From: a virus
Strand: one strand, 5' to 3'
Virus record (IMG/VR): IMGVR_UViG_3300030118_006270
Coordinates: 1 to 33,602 of that record
DNA length: 33,602 nt
Below the pieces are notes generated by a model, which was given only the letters and a program-made list of their open reading frames with translations, was not told the origin of the DNA and ran no database searches. A program made the translations under genes and the position numbers. Below, piece after piece: positions 10,972 through 33,602 of the stretch. Within the stretch, counting starts at the first letter, position 1. The number at the start of each line of letters is the position of its first letter.

Positions 10972-11814
10972 ATGAGTTTTTTAGGATTTGGTGGTTCAAA
11001 ACAACCTGCAACACCCGCTACTCAAACACAATTTGTTAGAGAGGCACCAGGCATAGAAGAAAGAAAAATTGAGTTGATGGATATTGCTAGGCAAGTTGCC
11101 CAGCGTCCAATAGATTTACCTGATGTGCAAGTTGCTCCTTTAACAGCACTAGAGCAACAAGGGTTAGCACAAGCGGCAGCAACTGGTGTAGGCGCAGATA
11201 CAGTAAACAAAGGTATAGCTGCATTACAAGCAGGTGTTGCACCTATTGGAGCAGCACAAATAAGTCAATTTTTTAATCCGTTTCAAGATGCAGTTAATCA
11301 AGAAATTTTAAGACAATCACAAGGTATGCAAGATCAAATTGCAGCACAAGCTATCAGATCAGGAGCTTTTGGTGGTGGAAGAGAAGGTGTTCAACAAGCA
11401 GAATTACAAAAAAGAACTTTAGAAGCCATAGGCAGATCTAATCAAATGGGTTTCACACAAGCTTTACAAGCAGCACAAAATCAACAAAGAACACAATTAG
11501 CTGGAGGTCAACAACTCGCAAACGTAGGAGCTGGACAACAACAAATGGCACAAGCTGATATTAATCAGTTGTTTGGCGCAGGTGGTATACAAAGACAATT
11601 AGCACAACAAGCTTTAGATGCACAAAGAGCTTCAACTTTACAACAACAGTTTGAACCTTTCCAAAGAGCAGAGTTTTTAGCAAACTTATATGCTCAAGGA
11701 CCAAAAACACAATCGGGAATTACTATGGGAACCGCTCCTTCAACAAGCCCTTTAGCTCAAGCAGTTGGAACAGGTATAGGAGCTTTTGCTGCATTCCAAG
11801 GTGCTAAAAGTTAG
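10972..11814 (+). CDS. Ala/Gln-rich internal virion protein
   Basis: 280 codons. After a short Gly/Pro/Thr-rich leader the protein is almost entirely helical with high Ala and Gln content. It carries 'QFFNPFQDAVNQEIL' near 100-114 and 'SGAFGGGREGVQQAELQK' near 130-147, a combination recurrent in phage internal or ejection proteins. Long amphipathic helices suggest a coiled-coil assembly in the tail or capsid lumen. The stop TAG is part of the Shine-Dalgarno of the next gene (TTAGGAGGAAACATG). Confidence 0.65.
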   Translation: MSFLGFGGSKQPATPATQTQFVREAPGIEERKIELMDIARQVAQRPIDLPDVQVAPLTALEQQGLAQAAATGVGADTVNKGIAALQAGVAPIGAAQISQFFNPFQDAVNQEILRQSQGMQDQIAAQAIRSGAFGGGREGVQQAELQKRTLEAIGRSNQMGFTQALQAAQNQQRTQLAGGQQLANVGAGQQQMAQADINQLFGAGGIQRQLAQQALDAQRASTLQQQFEPFQRAEFLANLYAQGPKTQSGITMGTAPSTSPLAQAVGTGIGAFAAFQGAKS

Positions 11815-11822
11815 GAGGAAAC

Positions 11823-14114
11823 ATGTCCGTAAATAAAGTTTTAAACAGACCTATGTTTCGAAAGGTAGCATTAAAAAAAGGGTACATTAAACCAATACAT
11901 GCACAATCAGGCAGAATGGTTGGTGCACCAACACAAGATATTAGAAACACTCGATTTCGACCACCTGCTATTAATACTCAAGGTTTTTTTGGTAGAAATA
12001 TAAGACCTTTTTTACAAAGAACTATGGGAGATATAAGAGGTTTTGCTACACAACCTGGACAATTTTTTACAACTCAACCTTTAGGAAAAACACCTGGAAT
12101 AGGCACAGCAAGACTTTTAGGTATAGAGGGACTAATTAAACCAATAGGTGCAGTAACTAGCAAACTCGGTATGCCAGAAGGCACAGCAAAAAGTGTAGTG
12201 GACTTTGGTTTAGCTACTATAGGTGGGCTTACTCCAATAGGCAGAGCTGCTGGATTAACGTTAGGTGCTGCAGACTTATTAATGGGCGCACAGGATTATG
12301 TTAGTGGTAAAAAATTAGGAACTACAAGTAAAGCTGTTTTTAATCTTGGAGATCCTTTAGGTTTATTTCAACCAATAGACAGTACAAAAAGAGTGGGAAG
12401 AAAAAGAGATCCAGAAAGAGCTAAAATAGTACAAGAACAAATTAGTGCAAATAGACAAAAATTAATAGATGCTGGTAAAGAAAATCTGTTACCTGAAAAT
12501 AGATCTAGATTAAGAAGGAAACAAGTTGAGGCTAGAATGCAACCAAAGGATGAAGTTGATGTTGCTACACAGCCTCAAAATACAACTAAGATAGGTGATA
12601 ATGAATTAGTTGATACAGCAAAAATTTCAGAAAATGCTATCAATAATCAACAACAATTTGATGAGGGAGATTTACAAGCTCCACCAATCGGTGAAGAAAA
12701 AAAACAAGAAAAAGATAGATTTGGTTTTGCAAAAAAAGAAATTAAAAAAGGAGAAGCAGACAATGCTCAAGATCAAGCAAATAAAGATGCATTAGTGGTT
12801 GAGTCTCCCTACATGGCAGCGATAAAAGAGGCAAAGGCTATGGCTGCAGAAATGAGAAAAGGTAGAGCATCACAAACTCAGCTTATATTTTTATCTAATT
12901 TAGCATCTGGTTTACTTACCGGCACTACTAACAGACGTGGTTTATCAGGAGCCTTAGATGTGTTTGGTAAAGCCTTAGGACCTGCTGTCAACAATATGGT
13001 TATGGTAAAAATGAAAGAAAACGAATTAGATCAAAACCTATTAGGTAGAGCATTAGAATTTCAATCTGATTTTTTAAAAGCTCAAAACGATGCATTCGAG
13101 ATGCCTGATACAGCAGAAACTGGAGTAATACAAATTCAAAATGAGGTAGGTAGAATTGTTAACGTGCCTGGAAGAATTTTAAAAGATGGCACCAAACAAA
13201 GAGCCACAGGAGAAGTAGACTCAAGAGGAATGAATATTTATGTTACAGTTGATCCTTCTTTTAACTTTATTGCAAATAAAGATCAAAACAAAGAAACTTT
13301 GGAAATAGCTGGTGACATTGCAGGAAAGTATGCTGCTGTAAATCTAATTAACAGATCTTTAGCTATTATCACAGAAGATAGGGCTAGTGCGGGTGTAACT
13401 GGTGCTATTGGTTTATATGGAGGCCGATTGGCGGAAGCGTTAGGGGATGTATTGAAATTTGTTAAACCTTCTGGAGATACAAAAGCAGAATTAAAAACAT
13501 CTGGAAAAACAATGTTTGATATAGAAAGAAATTCTGCCGCTAATAGATTAGTCAAAGGTGGTGAATTTGAAACAAAAGAGGAAGCATTAAAATATTTAGA
13601 TGCACAATTTGGAAGCTTTGATAAAATTTATAACAACTCATTAAATAATGCTAGAAAAAGATTAAAGGGCGGTAAAAAACTTGACTATGAGAGATTAGCA
13701 ATTAATGAAACAGTGCTTGTTTACAAACTTGCAAACTCATTAAAATCAAAAGATAGATTAACACAAAAAGATATTGATATGGCTAAGGGTCTTGTAAAAG
13801 TTTTTCCAGCGTTTAGAGGTGAAATAAATGTCATAGCTTCATTAACAGCTACGGCAGAGACTATTCTTGATGATATTAAACAACAAGAAAGATTATATGA
13901 AAGAGCTGGTGGTTCTACACAATACTTGTTAAATGAAAGACGAGCTTATGGGTTAGGCACTGCATCAGAGACACTTAACACCTTTACAGGTGATTTACTG
14001 GGCGGAAAAAAACGAAAAGAACTTAAAGACTTTGAGGAACGAGTTCAAGAATTACTAAAAGATGAGGAGCGTTTACAAAACTTATTTCCACCCGAATTAT
14101 TTAGGATAAATTAA
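11823..14114 (+). CDS. Large internal virion / ejection-type protein
   Basis: 763 codons with AGGAGG at 11813-11818. The N-terminal 130 residues are Arg/Pro/Gln-rich and basic; a Gly/Ala hydrophobic stretch (GGLTPIGRAAGLTLGAADLL) follows at about 138-157. A charged Lys/Glu/Gln-rich linker lies at about 200-325, then a helical core ('SQTQLIFLSNLASGLLTG', about 350-367) and a long helical C-terminus. No lysozyme or transglycosylase motif is seen. Size, composition and the TAATG coupling with the next very large gene fit the pair of internal proteins that podoviruses eject with their DNA (inference). Confidence 0.65.
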   Translation: MSVNKVLNRPMFRKVALKKGYIKPIHAQSGRMVGAPTQDIRNTRFRPPAINTQGFFGRNIRPFLQRTMGDIRGFATQPGQFFTTQPLGKTPGIGTARLLGIEGLIKPIGAVTSKLGMPEGTAKSVVDFGLATIGGLTPIGRAAGLTLGAADLLMGAQDYVSGKKLGTTSKAVFNLGDPLGLFQPIDSTKRVGRKRDPERAKIVQEQISANRQKLIDAGKENLLPENRSRLRRKQVEARMQPKDEVDVATQPQNTTKIGDNELVDTAKISENAINNQQQFDEGDLQAPPIGEEKKQEKDRFGFAKKEIKKGEADNAQDQANKDALVVESPYMAAIKEAKAMAAEMRKGRASQTQLIFLSNLASGLLTGTTNRRGLSGALDVFGKALGPAVNNMVMVKMKENELDQNLLGRALEFQSDFLKAQNDAFEMPDTAETGVIQIQNEVGRIVNVPGRILKDGTKQRATGEVDSRGMNIYVTVDPSFNFIANKDQNKETLEIAGDIAGKYAAVNLINRSLAIITEDRASAGVTGAIGLYGGRLAEALGDVLKFVKPSGDTKAELKTSGKTMFDIERNSAANRLVKGGEFETKEEALKYLDAQFGSFDKIYNNSLNNARKRLKGGKKLDYERLAINETVLVYKLANSLKSKDRLTQKDIDMAKGLVKVFPAFRGEINVIASLTATAETILDDIKQQERLYERAGGSTQYLLNERRAYGLGTASETLNTFTGDLLGGKKRKELKDFEERVQELLKDEERLQNLFPPELFRIN

Positions 14115-28825: not shown

Positions 28826-29608
28826 ATGAACAATTCAATAAAAAATAAATACTTTGAGACTACAGATTACTCAAAGTTTAAAAAAGCTAGAGGTAATAGA
28901 CCTGTAGATGACACACACGTAAAGCAATTAAAAAGATTAATTGCAGAAAAAGATCTTTATGATCCAATCCGTGTAAATAAAAATATGGAAGTGATTGATG
29001 GTCAACACACTTTACAAGCTAGAAAAGAACTAGATTTGAAAGTGCCATACATCATTATTAATTCTGATGATCCACTCGATGTTGCAAGACTCAACACGGG
29101 TAGGAAGAACTGGTCCATGGAAGCATATTTAAATCATCACTGCGCTAGGCAGAAAAGAGATTATCAAATATGTAGAAATAAAATGAATCAGTATGGTATT
29201 AATGTTGCTGAAGCGATAATGCTTTTATTAAAGCAAGTTTCTTTATGGAACAGAATATCCACTGATTTTAAAACAGGTCATTTTTCAATACCTGCAGGAG
29301 GGATAGAAAATATTGATCGTATAGGATCTGCATTGAATACCTTAAAAAAATATTTTTTAGGTATGGATGATACAAAACGTAGATTAAAAAGATCTATGGT
29401 TATGGCTTACATAATAGCTGATAGATGCCCAAATTTTGATCTCAGACGTTTTAGAGATGCCTGTAAAACTAAATCTGCTTGGTTCCTTTCTGGTACTAGC
29501 ACCAAAGATTACATCGCTATTATTGAAAAAATTTACAATAGTGGCCGTAGTAAACATAAAATAAAACTTCTTGATTTTTTTACATCTAAAGAATATCAAG
29601 AACATTAG
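28826..29608 (+). CDS. ParB-like N-terminal domain protein
   Basis: 260 codons with AAGGAGG upstream (28812-28818). The first 80 residues match the ParB/sulfiredoxin fold: 'NRPVDDTHVKQLKRLI', 'LYDPIRVNKNMEVIDGQH' and 'TLQARKEL', with the D-G-Q-H box at 58-61 in place of the G-E-x-R box of chromosomal ParB. The rest is helical and basic, possibly DNA-binding. Phage proteins of this kind may be nucleases, CTP-dependent DNA clamps or transcription regulators. No ParA partner is present, so plasmid-like partition is not supported. Confidence 0.75.
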   Translation: MNNSIKNKYFETTDYSKFKKARGNRPVDDTHVKQLKRLIAEKDLYDPIRVNKNMEVIDGQHTLQARKELDLKVPYIIINSDDPLDVARLNTGRKNWSMEAYLNHHCARQKRDYQICRNKMNQYGINVAEAIMLLLKQVSLWNRISTDFKTGHFSIPAGGIENIDRIGSALNTLKKYFLGMDDTKRRLKRSMVMAYIIADRCPNFDLRRFRDACKTKSAWFLSGTSTKDYIAIIEKIYNSGRSKHKIKLLDFFTSKEYQEH

Positions 29609-31155: not shown

Positions 31156-31260
31156 GGTGTATCTGGTGTATCTAAACAACTATTAATCAATATTACCAAC
31201 ACTTTTAATCAATTTTAGTGGTGTATCTATGGTGTATCTATGGTGTATCTTGGATACACC
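31156..31260. repeat. Iteron-like array of GGTGTATCT
   Basis: Exact GGTGTATCT copies lie at 31156-31164, 31165-31173, 31220-31228, 31231-31239 and 31242-31250; the last three are spaced exactly 11 bases apart. An inverted copy, GGATACACC, follows at 31252-31260 and pairs with the fifth copy (GGTGTATC-TTG-GATACACC). The 11-base period places repeats about one helical turn apart, as for cooperative protein binding. Candidates are a replication origin, a terminase-binding site or a regulator array. Confidence 0.8.
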
Positions 31261-31334: not shown

Positions 31335-31469
31335 ATGAATAAAAAACAAGCAATCTTAAAAAAAATAAAAGGCAAATTAGAAAAAGCTTCAAAAGCACAT
31401 GCTGGACAAGCTAAGGCCATTGGTAAAGTATTAAAAACAAAGAATAAAAAAAATGGGCGGGTTAGTTAA
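31335..31469 (+). CDS. Tiny lysine-rich protein, 44 aa
   Basis: ATG at 31335; TAA ends at 31469, overlapping the small terminase start by 17 bases. The product (KKIKGKLEKASKAHAGQAKA in the centre) is a Lys/Ala-rich amphipathic helix. Short proteins with the 'KASKAHAGQAK' core recur in marine phages near the small terminase gene. Possible nucleic-acid binding, but no proven role. Confidence 0.6.
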   Translation: MNKKQAILKKIKGKLEKASKAHAGQAKAIGKVLKTKNKKNGRVS

Positions 31470-31977
31470 AAAAGAGTTAAGAACTGATAAAGACCTTACT
31501 CCCAAACAAAAAATGTTTGTTGAGATTATGGTTCAAGATCATGGGCAAATTACACAAGCCGAAGCACTTAAACGTGCCGGTTATTCTTGTAAGGATTTAA
31601 ATAGTGCAAGATCAACAGCATCACAGTTACTAAACAGAAGAATAAACCCACATGTAGCTAAATATTACGATAAACGATTTGAGCAAGAAGTTAAAAAATA
31701 TGAAAGTGACAACTTAAGACGATTCAAAAGATTTGAAAGATTATCTGATAAAGCAGAAAAGAAAGAACAATATGCTGCAGCAATTAATGCAGAATATAGA
31801 TCTGGCCAGTTAGCCGGTGCTTTTGTTGATAGAAAAGAAGTTAGAGTAACTGGATTGGAGGGTATGTCACGTGAAGAGCTTGAGAACAAACTTAAGGAAC
31901 TCTCAGAAAAAATCGATGGCCACAATGCAAAAACTATCGATATCAAAGCTGAAGACAAATCATCTAAAAAAAGTTAA
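31453..31977 (+). CDS. terS: Terminase small subunit (putative)
   Basis: 174 codons. The N-terminal domain begins 'LTPKQKMFVEIMVQDHGQ' and holds a helix-turn-helix-like region 'TQAEALKRAGYSC' and 'ARSTASQLLNRRINPHVAKY' (about 30-72), the usual DNA-recognition domain of small terminase subunits. A charged coiled-coil-like centre for oligomerisation and a Lys/Asp-rich tail follow. It should select viral DNA for packaging with the large subunit, expected beyond the right edge. Repeat arrays flank it on both sides. Confidence 0.8.
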   Translation: MGGLVKKELRTDKDLTPKQKMFVEIMVQDHGQITQAEALKRAGYSCKDLNSARSTASQLLNRRINPHVAKYYDKRFEQEVKKYESDNLRRFKRFERLSDKAEKKEQYAAAINAEYRSGQLAGAFVDRKEVRVTGLEGMSREELENKLKELSEKIDGHNAKTIDIKAEDKSSKKS

Positions 31978-32365: not shown

Positions 32366-32749
32366 ATGAAAGAATCTAGGCTATGGAAAAAGGTACAGAA
32401 AGGTTTACCTAAATGTTTCTTAACCCGCGTAGAATCTAGCACAATTAATGGTATTCCGGATGTACATGCTGTTGCAAAAGGTAAAATTTTTTGGATAGAA
32501 TTAAAATCAGATGAAGCTAATTATCCTAAACTTAACAAGTGGCAAATAGTTTGGATTAATAGATATATTAAGTCAGGTGGTAGAGTATTTATCCTCAAAG
32601 AGACCCCCTCGAAGAGGTCTTTAGAACTGTACAGACCGGTGTCCGTGTTTACGGATCCTCGTTCTCTCGTTCCTGTTTTCTCGTTCTCGTTCCCTGTACA
32701 ATGGCCAACGGTCCAGGATCTCCTGCTGGGGGGCTGCACGGCAGCGTAG
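32366..32749 (+). CDS. VRR-NUC nuclease with an odd C-terminal extension
   Basis: 127 codons. The VRR-NUC core spans residues about 1-78: E23, 'NGIPDVHAV' with D32, 'FWIELKS' with E45 and K47, and Q60 in 'KWQIVWI', then 'SGGRVFIL'. Such small nucleases can cleave branched or structured DNA. From codon 80 the DNA changes character: G+C rises, codons such as CTC, GTC and CTG appear, and residues 90-127 (VFTDPRSLVPVFSFSFP and onward) are encoded by the CTCGTT-repeat segment. This suggests loss of an earlier stop and read-through into non-coding DNA. Confidence 0.78.
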   Translation: MKESRLWKKVQKGLPKCFLTRVESSTINGIPDVHAVAKGKIFWIELKSDEANYPKLNKWQIVWINRYIKSGGRVFILKETPSKRSLELYRPVSVFTDPRSLVPVFSFSFPVQWPTVQDLLLGGCTAA

Positions 32750-32854
32750 CTCTCGTTCCCTGCCCACGTTTCTTTTACCTCTTTTTGTTAGTTGCGTGGG
32801 CTGGGGACGAGATCCTCGTTCTCGTTTCTCGTTCTCGTTTCTCGTTTCTCGTTT
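32658..32854 (+). repeat. CTCGTT repeat region
   Basis: CTCGTT occurs 11 times here, all in one orientation: four copies at 32658-32691, one at 32752-32757, and six tandem CTCGTT(T) units at 32815-32854. Longer repeats include GATCCTCGTTCTC (32654 and 32811) and CTCGTTCCCTG (32686 and 32752). Three further copies lie at 32982, 33004 and 33499. The strand-biased pyrimidine repeats just after terS suggest a packaging-recognition region or a structured RNA. Bases 32750-32954 contain no gene. Confidence 0.8.
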
Positions 32855-32920: not shown

Positions 32921-32949
32921 TTGACAACGATCCCACGATGTCTTATAAA
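32921..32949 (+). promoter_or_regulatory. Near-consensus sigma70-type promoter
   Basis: TTGACA (32921-32926), a 17-base spacer and TATAAA (32944-32949). The spacer contains ATCCCA (32930-32935), and GTCTTAT spans the approach to the -10 box, both shared with the promoter at 33199. The -10 box ends five bases before the ATG at 32955, so transcripts would start at or beside the start codon. Confidence 0.75.
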
Positions 32950-32954
32950 AAAGA

Positions 32955-33194
32955 ATGACAGAGTTTAATGAATCGATAGGTCTCGTTCAAAGTCAGAACA
33001 AAGCTCGTTCTTACGACAGTAAAGTTGGGGAGCTCCAGCGTGAAGTGACAGGACTTCGTCAGCTGGTAACCAAAGTCAAGGAACACTTGGTATGGAACAT
33101 TGAACAGGAGGCCACGTTTGAGAATTTTGAAGTTAGGGCGGACAGTGCACAACTGTTACATAAAATCGAAGATCTAGAAAAAAAAGTAAAATAA
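32955..33194 (+). CDS. Small coiled-coil protein, 79 aa
   Basis: ATG at 32955, five bases after a consensus -10 box, with no clear Shine-Dalgarno. The protein is a charged helix with heptads ('KVGELQREVTGLRQLVTKVK', 'LLHKIEDLEKKVK'). Arginine is encoded as CGT as well as AGG, unlike the AGA-dominated left part of the window. Two CTCGTT copies are within the gene. Function unknown; possible oligomeric adaptor or regulator. Confidence 0.6.
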   Translation: MTEFNESIGLVQSQNKARSYDSKVGELQREVTGLRQLVTKVKEHLVWNIEQEATFENFEVRADSAQLLHKIEDLEKKVK

Positions 33195-33198
33195 CTTC

Positions 33199-33227
33199 TT
33201 GACATATATCCCATCAGGTCTTATCTT
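33199..33227 (+). promoter_or_regulatory. Near-consensus sigma70-type promoter
   Basis: TTGACA (33199-33204), a 17-base spacer and TATCTT (33222-33227), with ATCCCATCA (33208-33216) in the spacer as at 28079. Followed by a leader of about 55 bases with a hairpin and a strong Shine-Dalgarno for the gene at 33289. Confidence 0.72.
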
Positions 33228-33233
33228 AGGCAC

Positions 33234-33266: not shown

Positions 33267-33288
33267 AAACTAACAAAGGAGGGGTAAC

Positions 33289-33489
33289 GTGGGAAAACAA
33301 AAACTAAACAATCTTATAAAACAATTGAATGCAGACAACGCACCGCCTGATGGTTGGTCCGCTGCCGATCGCGTGAAGAAAGACAAACCAGAACCCGGCA
33401 AAGTTTATGCATTAACCGGTGCCCCTGGTACACGTTGCATCGCTAATGGATACTCATGGAAGGACAGTGTCGTAAAGGATGAGAAATGA
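33289..33489 (+). CDS. Small unknown protein, 66 aa
   Basis: GTG start at 33289 with a perfect AAAGGAGG six bases upstream and its own promoter at 33199, which implies strong expression. The protein is basic and Pro/Gly-containing ('NAPPDGWSAADRVKKDKPEP', 'YALTGAPGTRCIANG'). Codons such as CGC and CGT are used for Arg. No family recognised. Confidence 0.65.
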   Translation: MGKQKLNNLIKQLNADNAPPDGWSAADRVKKDKPEPGKVYALTGAPGTRCIANGYSWKDSVVKDEK

Positions 33490-33602
33490 CGCTCTCGTCT
33501 CGTTGCAGCTGGGACGGGGCCCAGCGTACCGATCCTGAACTGGGATCCAGCGTCAGGACTCCGAAGTAGCATATGGTTTCGTTTATCTCGGTATATCTTG
33601 TA
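33490..33602. other. Right edge, structured segment without a visible gene
   Basis: After the last stop there is another CTCGTT (33499-33504), paired CCCAGCGT and TCCAGCGTC segments, and the small dyad CTGG-GAT-CCAG. No start with a good ribosome binding site is seen before the window ends. A large terminase gene would be expected beyond. Confidence 0.4.

Follow-up and report, generated by a model that had tools for sequence, protein, structure and literature searches.

A same-strand CTCGTT array with a conserved hairpin at its centre in a putative RNA-level control region of an HTVC023P-type pelagiphage

Next to the terminase small subunit gene (terS) of a phage most likely infecting SAR11, a dense same-strand array of the hexamer CTCGTT surrounds a conserved stem-loop, here called H1, whose loop is complementary to the ribosome-binding leader of small genes of the same island. 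The array is more likely a gene-control region than the packaging site that an earlier note on this DNA had considered plausible. Among the HTVC023P-type pelagiphages that carry CTCGTT, it may form part of a region of the early-gene island that exerts control at the RNA level, with H1 as an anti-leader element and CUCGUU as tags; we put forward this reading tentatively, with confidence somewhat short of even.

Classification and features

The window (the whole stretch of 33,602 nucleotides that was analysed) is an entire IMG/VR record of 33.6 kb, classed as linear, and is a fragment of an HTVC023P-type (SAR11) phage, a member of an abundant ocean virus group. The host is most likely SAR11, judged from the TerS protein, which is 51% identical to that of the Pelagibacter phage HTVC023P, and from a terS 80% identical to that of the window on a contig in the single-amplified SAR11 genome AG-919-D18 (Pelagibacteraceae). 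The host of this phage group is indicated by a 47.8 kb phage contig (L202, CACMNP010000007.1) within a Pelagibacteraceae single-cell genome.

The terS gene (31453-31977, plus strand) was assigned by PHROG 51, terminase small subunit (E 2.5e-13), and by its identity to HTVC023P TerS. It is followed by a VRR-NUC-like nuclease gene (32366-32749, plus strand; PHROG 2165/93/5702, DNA helicase / endonuclease / Holliday junction resolvase). The G+C content of the array region is 45-55%, as compared to about 33% for the phage. A protein encoded near the terS operon (28826-29608) has a ParB-like IDGQHTLQA motif, as seen by eye. A second array lies upstream of terS (31156-31260), with five direct copies and one inverted copy of GGTGTATC at a spacing of 9-11 bases; most close relatives have it at the same position, with GGTGTCCCTG taking its place in L067, and it could itself be an origin, a regulator or a packaging site.

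Organization of the CTCGTT array

On the plus strand, 11 copies of CTCGTT (32658-32853) start at positions 32658, 32666, 32680, 32686, 32752, 32815, 32821, 32828, 32834, 32841 and 32848, with three further copies at 32982, 33004 and 33499 and no others on that strand in 33.6 kb. Four copies are located elsewhere on the minus strand (4049, 14038, 26622 and 28654). The recount agrees with the earlier note as to eleven copies of one orientation in about 200 bases and three more up to 33504; it noticed none in the rest of the window, which holds for the plus strand, and did not list the four minus-strand copies. Both strands together contain 18 copies, compared with a shuffle mean of 6.7, and 0 of 100 shuffles reached 18.

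The array had been described as lying just after terS and VRR-NUC. It is indeed next to these genes, but its start lies inside VRR-NUC, where copies 1-4 (32658-32691, plus strand) serve as codons at the 3' end of the coding sequence. Rare codons are used by CTCGTT there (TCG, 3.4% of Ser; CTC, 3.1% of Leu; CGT, 7.2% of Arg). The fifth copy (32752) is part of the 5' arm of H1. The six tandem CTCGTT(T) units reported at 32815-32854 (plus strand) were found again by motif count, and TRF confirmed the tandem block.

Further downstream, an early promoter-like site (TTGACA-17-TATAAA, 32921-32949, plus strand) was identified from its sequence and from relatives with TTGAC..TCCCAT..TAT sites at the same place. 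It is followed by an open reading frame for a small protein of 79 aa (32955-33194, plus strand; 42 homologs in H1 loci), whose coding sequence contains the CTCGTT copies at 32982 and 33004. The -10 element of this first early promoter (TATAAA, 32944-32949) is just 5 bases ahead of the ATG of the 79-aa gene; relatives have a normal AACAAAGGAG leader there, and the window copy looks leaderless or appears to have lost its leader. Another early promoter (TTGACA-17-TATCTT, 33199-33227, plus strand), within a segment (33197-33230) that is 85-100% identical in many relatives, precedes an open reading frame of 66 aa (33289-33489, plus strand; 102 homologs in H1 loci). The last CTCGTT copy (33499-33504, plus strand) is situated 10 bases past the stop of this gene, a position kept in many relatives.

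Conservation and arrangement in relatives

Among 80 loci found by their terS, nearly all of those reaching past VRR-NUC carry 8-20 same-strand copies of CTCGTT. In these loci the array spans 0.3-2.5 kb from a point about 1.2 kb downstream of the start of terS. Relatives whose TerS identity is as low as 49% have it in a single GC-rich island, with VRR-NUC on one side and terL on the other, and in ten long related records CTCGTT occurs almost entirely in one island and on one strand. Conservation of the array beside terS, proposed earlier as a check, was therefore observed in nearly all relatives extending that far, and its restriction to one place in whole related records.

The collection was also scanned for three clustered CTCGTT copies, a pattern whose listed matches include unrelated contigs. 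Among the matches listed were five extra loci with TerS just 49-51% identical (L109, L139, L147, L161 and L178) and one array locus with a 41% identical VRR-NUC (L106). A is avoided at the bases flanking the hexamer. The array was not found in any of the cultured phage isolates compared.

The copies are arranged with respect to genes and promoters. CTCGTT occurs at most 100 bases after the stop in 83 of 131 island genes and at most 100 bases before the start in 12 of them; for 68 island promoters, the mean is 5.1 copies in the preceding 300 bases and 0.85 downstream. Most stops in the deep clades are followed, 3-70 bases on, by clusters of two to four copies, and L106 has CTCGTT triplets at gene ends, two of which directly abut intrinsic terminators. 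The VRR-NUC genes of relatives carry the hexamer in all three frames (118, 62 and 10 times), which, together with the rare codons used, indicates that selection acts on the nucleotides. The TTGAC..TCCCAT..TAT promoter sites of array islands number 171 forward and 0 reverse, and inverted cassettes, which would part an RNA from a DNA function, were not found in CTCGTT islands. Tiny hydrophobic reading frames (e.g., MLVLVIVLVAISFLVIEQ) with codons built from CTCGTT were seen at gene ends (L147, 9868-9930; L161, 7718-7775; L178, 13106-13161).

A conserved hairpin at the array centre

H1 (32751-32812, plus strand; covariance model 69.9 bits, E 1.3e-17) consists of a 19-bp stem enclosing a pyrimidine-rich loop (UUUUACCUCUUUUUGUUAGUU) and is found in 126 of 146 oriented array loci. 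Its loop core CCUCUUUGUU is near-invariant, and the stems are quite different among loci. Regarding 32 diverse sequences, 95.6% of the cells were paired, and both sides had changed in 16 of the 18 pairs. Double-changed cells numbered 94, as compared to 27.5 in shuffles (0 of 500 reached 94), and all slid versions were far lower. RNAalifold recovered the same helix unaided. H1 is almost certainly a real RNA helix, to judge by these compensatory changes beyond the shuffled and slid controls, and the structured RNA that had been named as an alternative to a packaging site was the right suggestion for the centre of the array. G-U wobbles are common in H1 on the plus strand (e.g., C-G to U-G in 10 of 32 sequences at one pair), and because such one-sided changes are frequent, a plus-strand RNA is favoured over a DNA cruciform.

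Besides its own reverse strand, H1 was the sole match of the covariance model in 627 kb (window, isolates, deep clades and host). A comparison with Rfam yielded nothing relevant at the gathering cut-off or at E<=1 (the best hit, mir-2068, reached 19.8 bits with E 0.31, where the cut-off is 99). In the literature and Rfam searched, the H1 family and its link to the array appear to be undescribed; the anti-leader stem-loop as a kind of element is already known. H1 was absent from the deep CTCGTT clades, which makes array and hairpin separable.

Alignment of the whole island with RNAalifold over 300-400 nt was too gapped for use. Folding of the full region gave modest z-scores on the plus strand (0 to -4), and the predicted accessibility of CUCGUU did not exceed that of the flanking sequence; for these two reasons a single large RNA fold is not claimed.

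Complementarity of the H1 loop to leaders

The small genes of the island share a ribosome-binding leader, AACAAAGGAGG, to which the loop core of H1 is complementary. Predicted loop-leader duplexes are stronger for island genes (median -12.0) than for other phage genes (median -9.5), and within genomes the value was -13.9, versus -13.0 (sd 0.22) after permutation. The best-matched target in the window is the 66-aa gene, whose leader AACTAACAAAGGAGG (33268-33282, plus strand) has a predicted duplex of -20.9 kcal/mol with the loop. For one orthologous gene, 42 genomes have a GTTAGTT loop and 25 of these show an AACTAAC extension of the leader; among the 27 genomes lacking that loop, 0 do. Leader and H1 loop are associated among the homologs of the 66-aa gene. 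That loop and leader appear to vary together is support for pairing and not proof of it, as shared ancestry may partly account for the association. Several changes of the H1 loop are unmatched in the leader, and HTVC023P has AACTAACAAAGGAG leaders with H1 absent. On these sequence comparisons H1 is likely an antisense regulator; that it regulates the use of the leader is a possibility to which we would give not quite an even chance.

Proposed mechanism

Read-through from the terS/VRR-NUC operon would produce an RNA in which repeated CUCGUU tags lie on either side of H1. By pairing through its loop, in cis or in trans, with AACUAACAAAGGAGG, the Shine-Dalgarno leader of the small island genes, H1 would then reduce their translation. 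Early transcripts would begin downstream of H1, and, not containing it, would be translated at first. CUCGUU after stop codons would be a sense-strand sequence tag, read by some protein or RNA, a role in which we place less confidence than in the regulation of leader use by H1. Taken as a whole, a system in which a 3'-end CUCGUU tag on early cassettes and an anti-leader hairpin jointly shut off the small early genes once read-through begins would be previously undescribed; in this full form it is doubtful.

Alternative explanations

Candidates for a polar element acting at the level of DNA, other than a packaging site, include an origin, a site that controls replication forks or nucleases, and a site for antitermination or activation ahead of the promoters. 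The full strand polarity of the array agrees with such an element, as do two other phages of the group. HTVC027P has (GCTTGNN)n arrays in the same island, all on one strand, and in both HTVC027P and 023Pt_psg01 the small genes of the island run the opposite way, so that the repeats, which share the strand of the main gene set, are antisense to those small genes. Should these arrays be the counterparts of the CTCGTT arrays, their orientation would speak against a sense-RNA tag and strengthen the case for a polar role at the DNA level; CTCGTT and GCTTG may resemble each other by chance. A host Chi-type site was rejected on the basis of a SAR11 single-cell genome in which a related phage contig is present: in 340 kb, CTCGTT was found 43 times (17 forward, 26 reverse) against an expected 45.9, with no strand skew. 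Overall, we regard a DNA-level polar element as unlikely. AACGAG, the complement of CTCGTT, is presumably a universal segment of 16S rRNA, and pairing with it was discarded since the flanking bases misfit and the SAR11 phage HTVC027P has other repeats.

Some features of these two phages were recorded alongside. In 023Pt_psg01 (L204, 15367-17839), all five GGGCCCACCC copies share a strand, and the spaces between small genes contain GCTC/GCTTG runs. HTVC027P (L203, 17659-18200 of MN698241; locus 11671-12220) has a GC-rich stretch of about 450 bases without an annotated gene and with a promoter-like site of its own, which is upstream of gp34, ends in a (CAAGCNN) array and is possibly a non-coding RNA. 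The island genes gp30, gp33 and gp34 of HTVC027P are strongly expressed in early to middle infection, and the phage is without an RNA polymerase of its own (PMC12753301).

The repeats, hairpins and promoters might also be mobile or recombining intergenic modules that shuffle small early genes, with recombination, and not a binding partner, keeping the motif alike. The repeats do lie between swappable small genes, the gene content of the island varies, and the island holds different repeats in other lineages of the HTVC023P type ((GCTTGNN)n in HTVC027P, GCTC/GGGCCCACCC in 023Pt_psg01). The bare hexamer is, however, too short for homologous recombination, and its conservation extends over deep divergence and into coding sequence, where three frames and rare codons are used. 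This explanation is improbable. The T4-type promoter early stem-loop (PeSL) elements, which are mobile regulatory cassettes according to work cited in PMC4503421, are the model for it. The CTCGTT island resembles them in its promoter and stem-loop modules between small early genes and differs in adding a hexamer array and a leader-complementary loop, and shuffling is here putative.

A packaging site, in the form of an array bound by TerS with a cut by TerL nearby, as in a broad pac region, is distinctly improbable. The pac/cos reading offered earlier is favoured by the conservation of an oriented array beside terS, confined to one place and tied to terS over a wide range. Phage P1 pac is likewise composed of repeated hexamers, clustered near a terminase gene; the CTCGTT copies, unlike those of P1, spread over up to 2.5 kb, lie at gene ends and do not track TerS. 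A motif read by TerS should change with its DNA-binding region, and this hexamer does not, which makes packaging less likely: the helix-turn-helix regions of the TerS proteins of L109, L139, L147, L161 and L178 are only about 40% identical to that of the window (38-45%) and occur with the same hexamer, whereas HTVC023P lacks the hexamer although its TerS is about 60-65% identical to theirs, and 60-64% identical in that region. (Note that in the TerS tree the CTCGTT label of L202 is unsupported, since this contig ends 569 bases past terS.) The spacing of the units, at 6-7 bp or scattered over up to 2.5 kb, also speaks against pac, as does their placement after stops and before promoters, an arrangement that a pac site does not predict. 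For an SPP1-like TerS, PMC4737164 reports recognition through multiple sequence-independent contacts, which is a further point against it.

Comparison with known systems

Antisense stem-loop regulators of plasmids and phages mask Shine-Dalgarno sequences. H1 is like them in being a conserved hairpin whose loop is complementary to a ribosome-binding leader and covaries with its target; it is unlike them in that it is not opposite its target, would have several downstream genes with a shared leader as targets and sits in a CUCGUU array, and in that the regulation is predicted. The TAACTGA heptamer repeats of marine Beggiatoaceae, suggested to be sites of a post-transcriptional regulator, are, like CTCGTT, short intergenic direct repeats on the same strand; they are found just upstream of starts across bacterial genomes, whereas CTCGTT is found after stops in one phage island (PMC4679880).

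Implications

Position beside terS is, by itself, insufficient to call a repeat array a packaging site. If the proposed RNA control system is real, it would belong to one of the most abundant phage groups of the ocean, and a conserved hairpin whose predicted target lies in its own genome offers a concrete and testable handle on the timing of phage genes.
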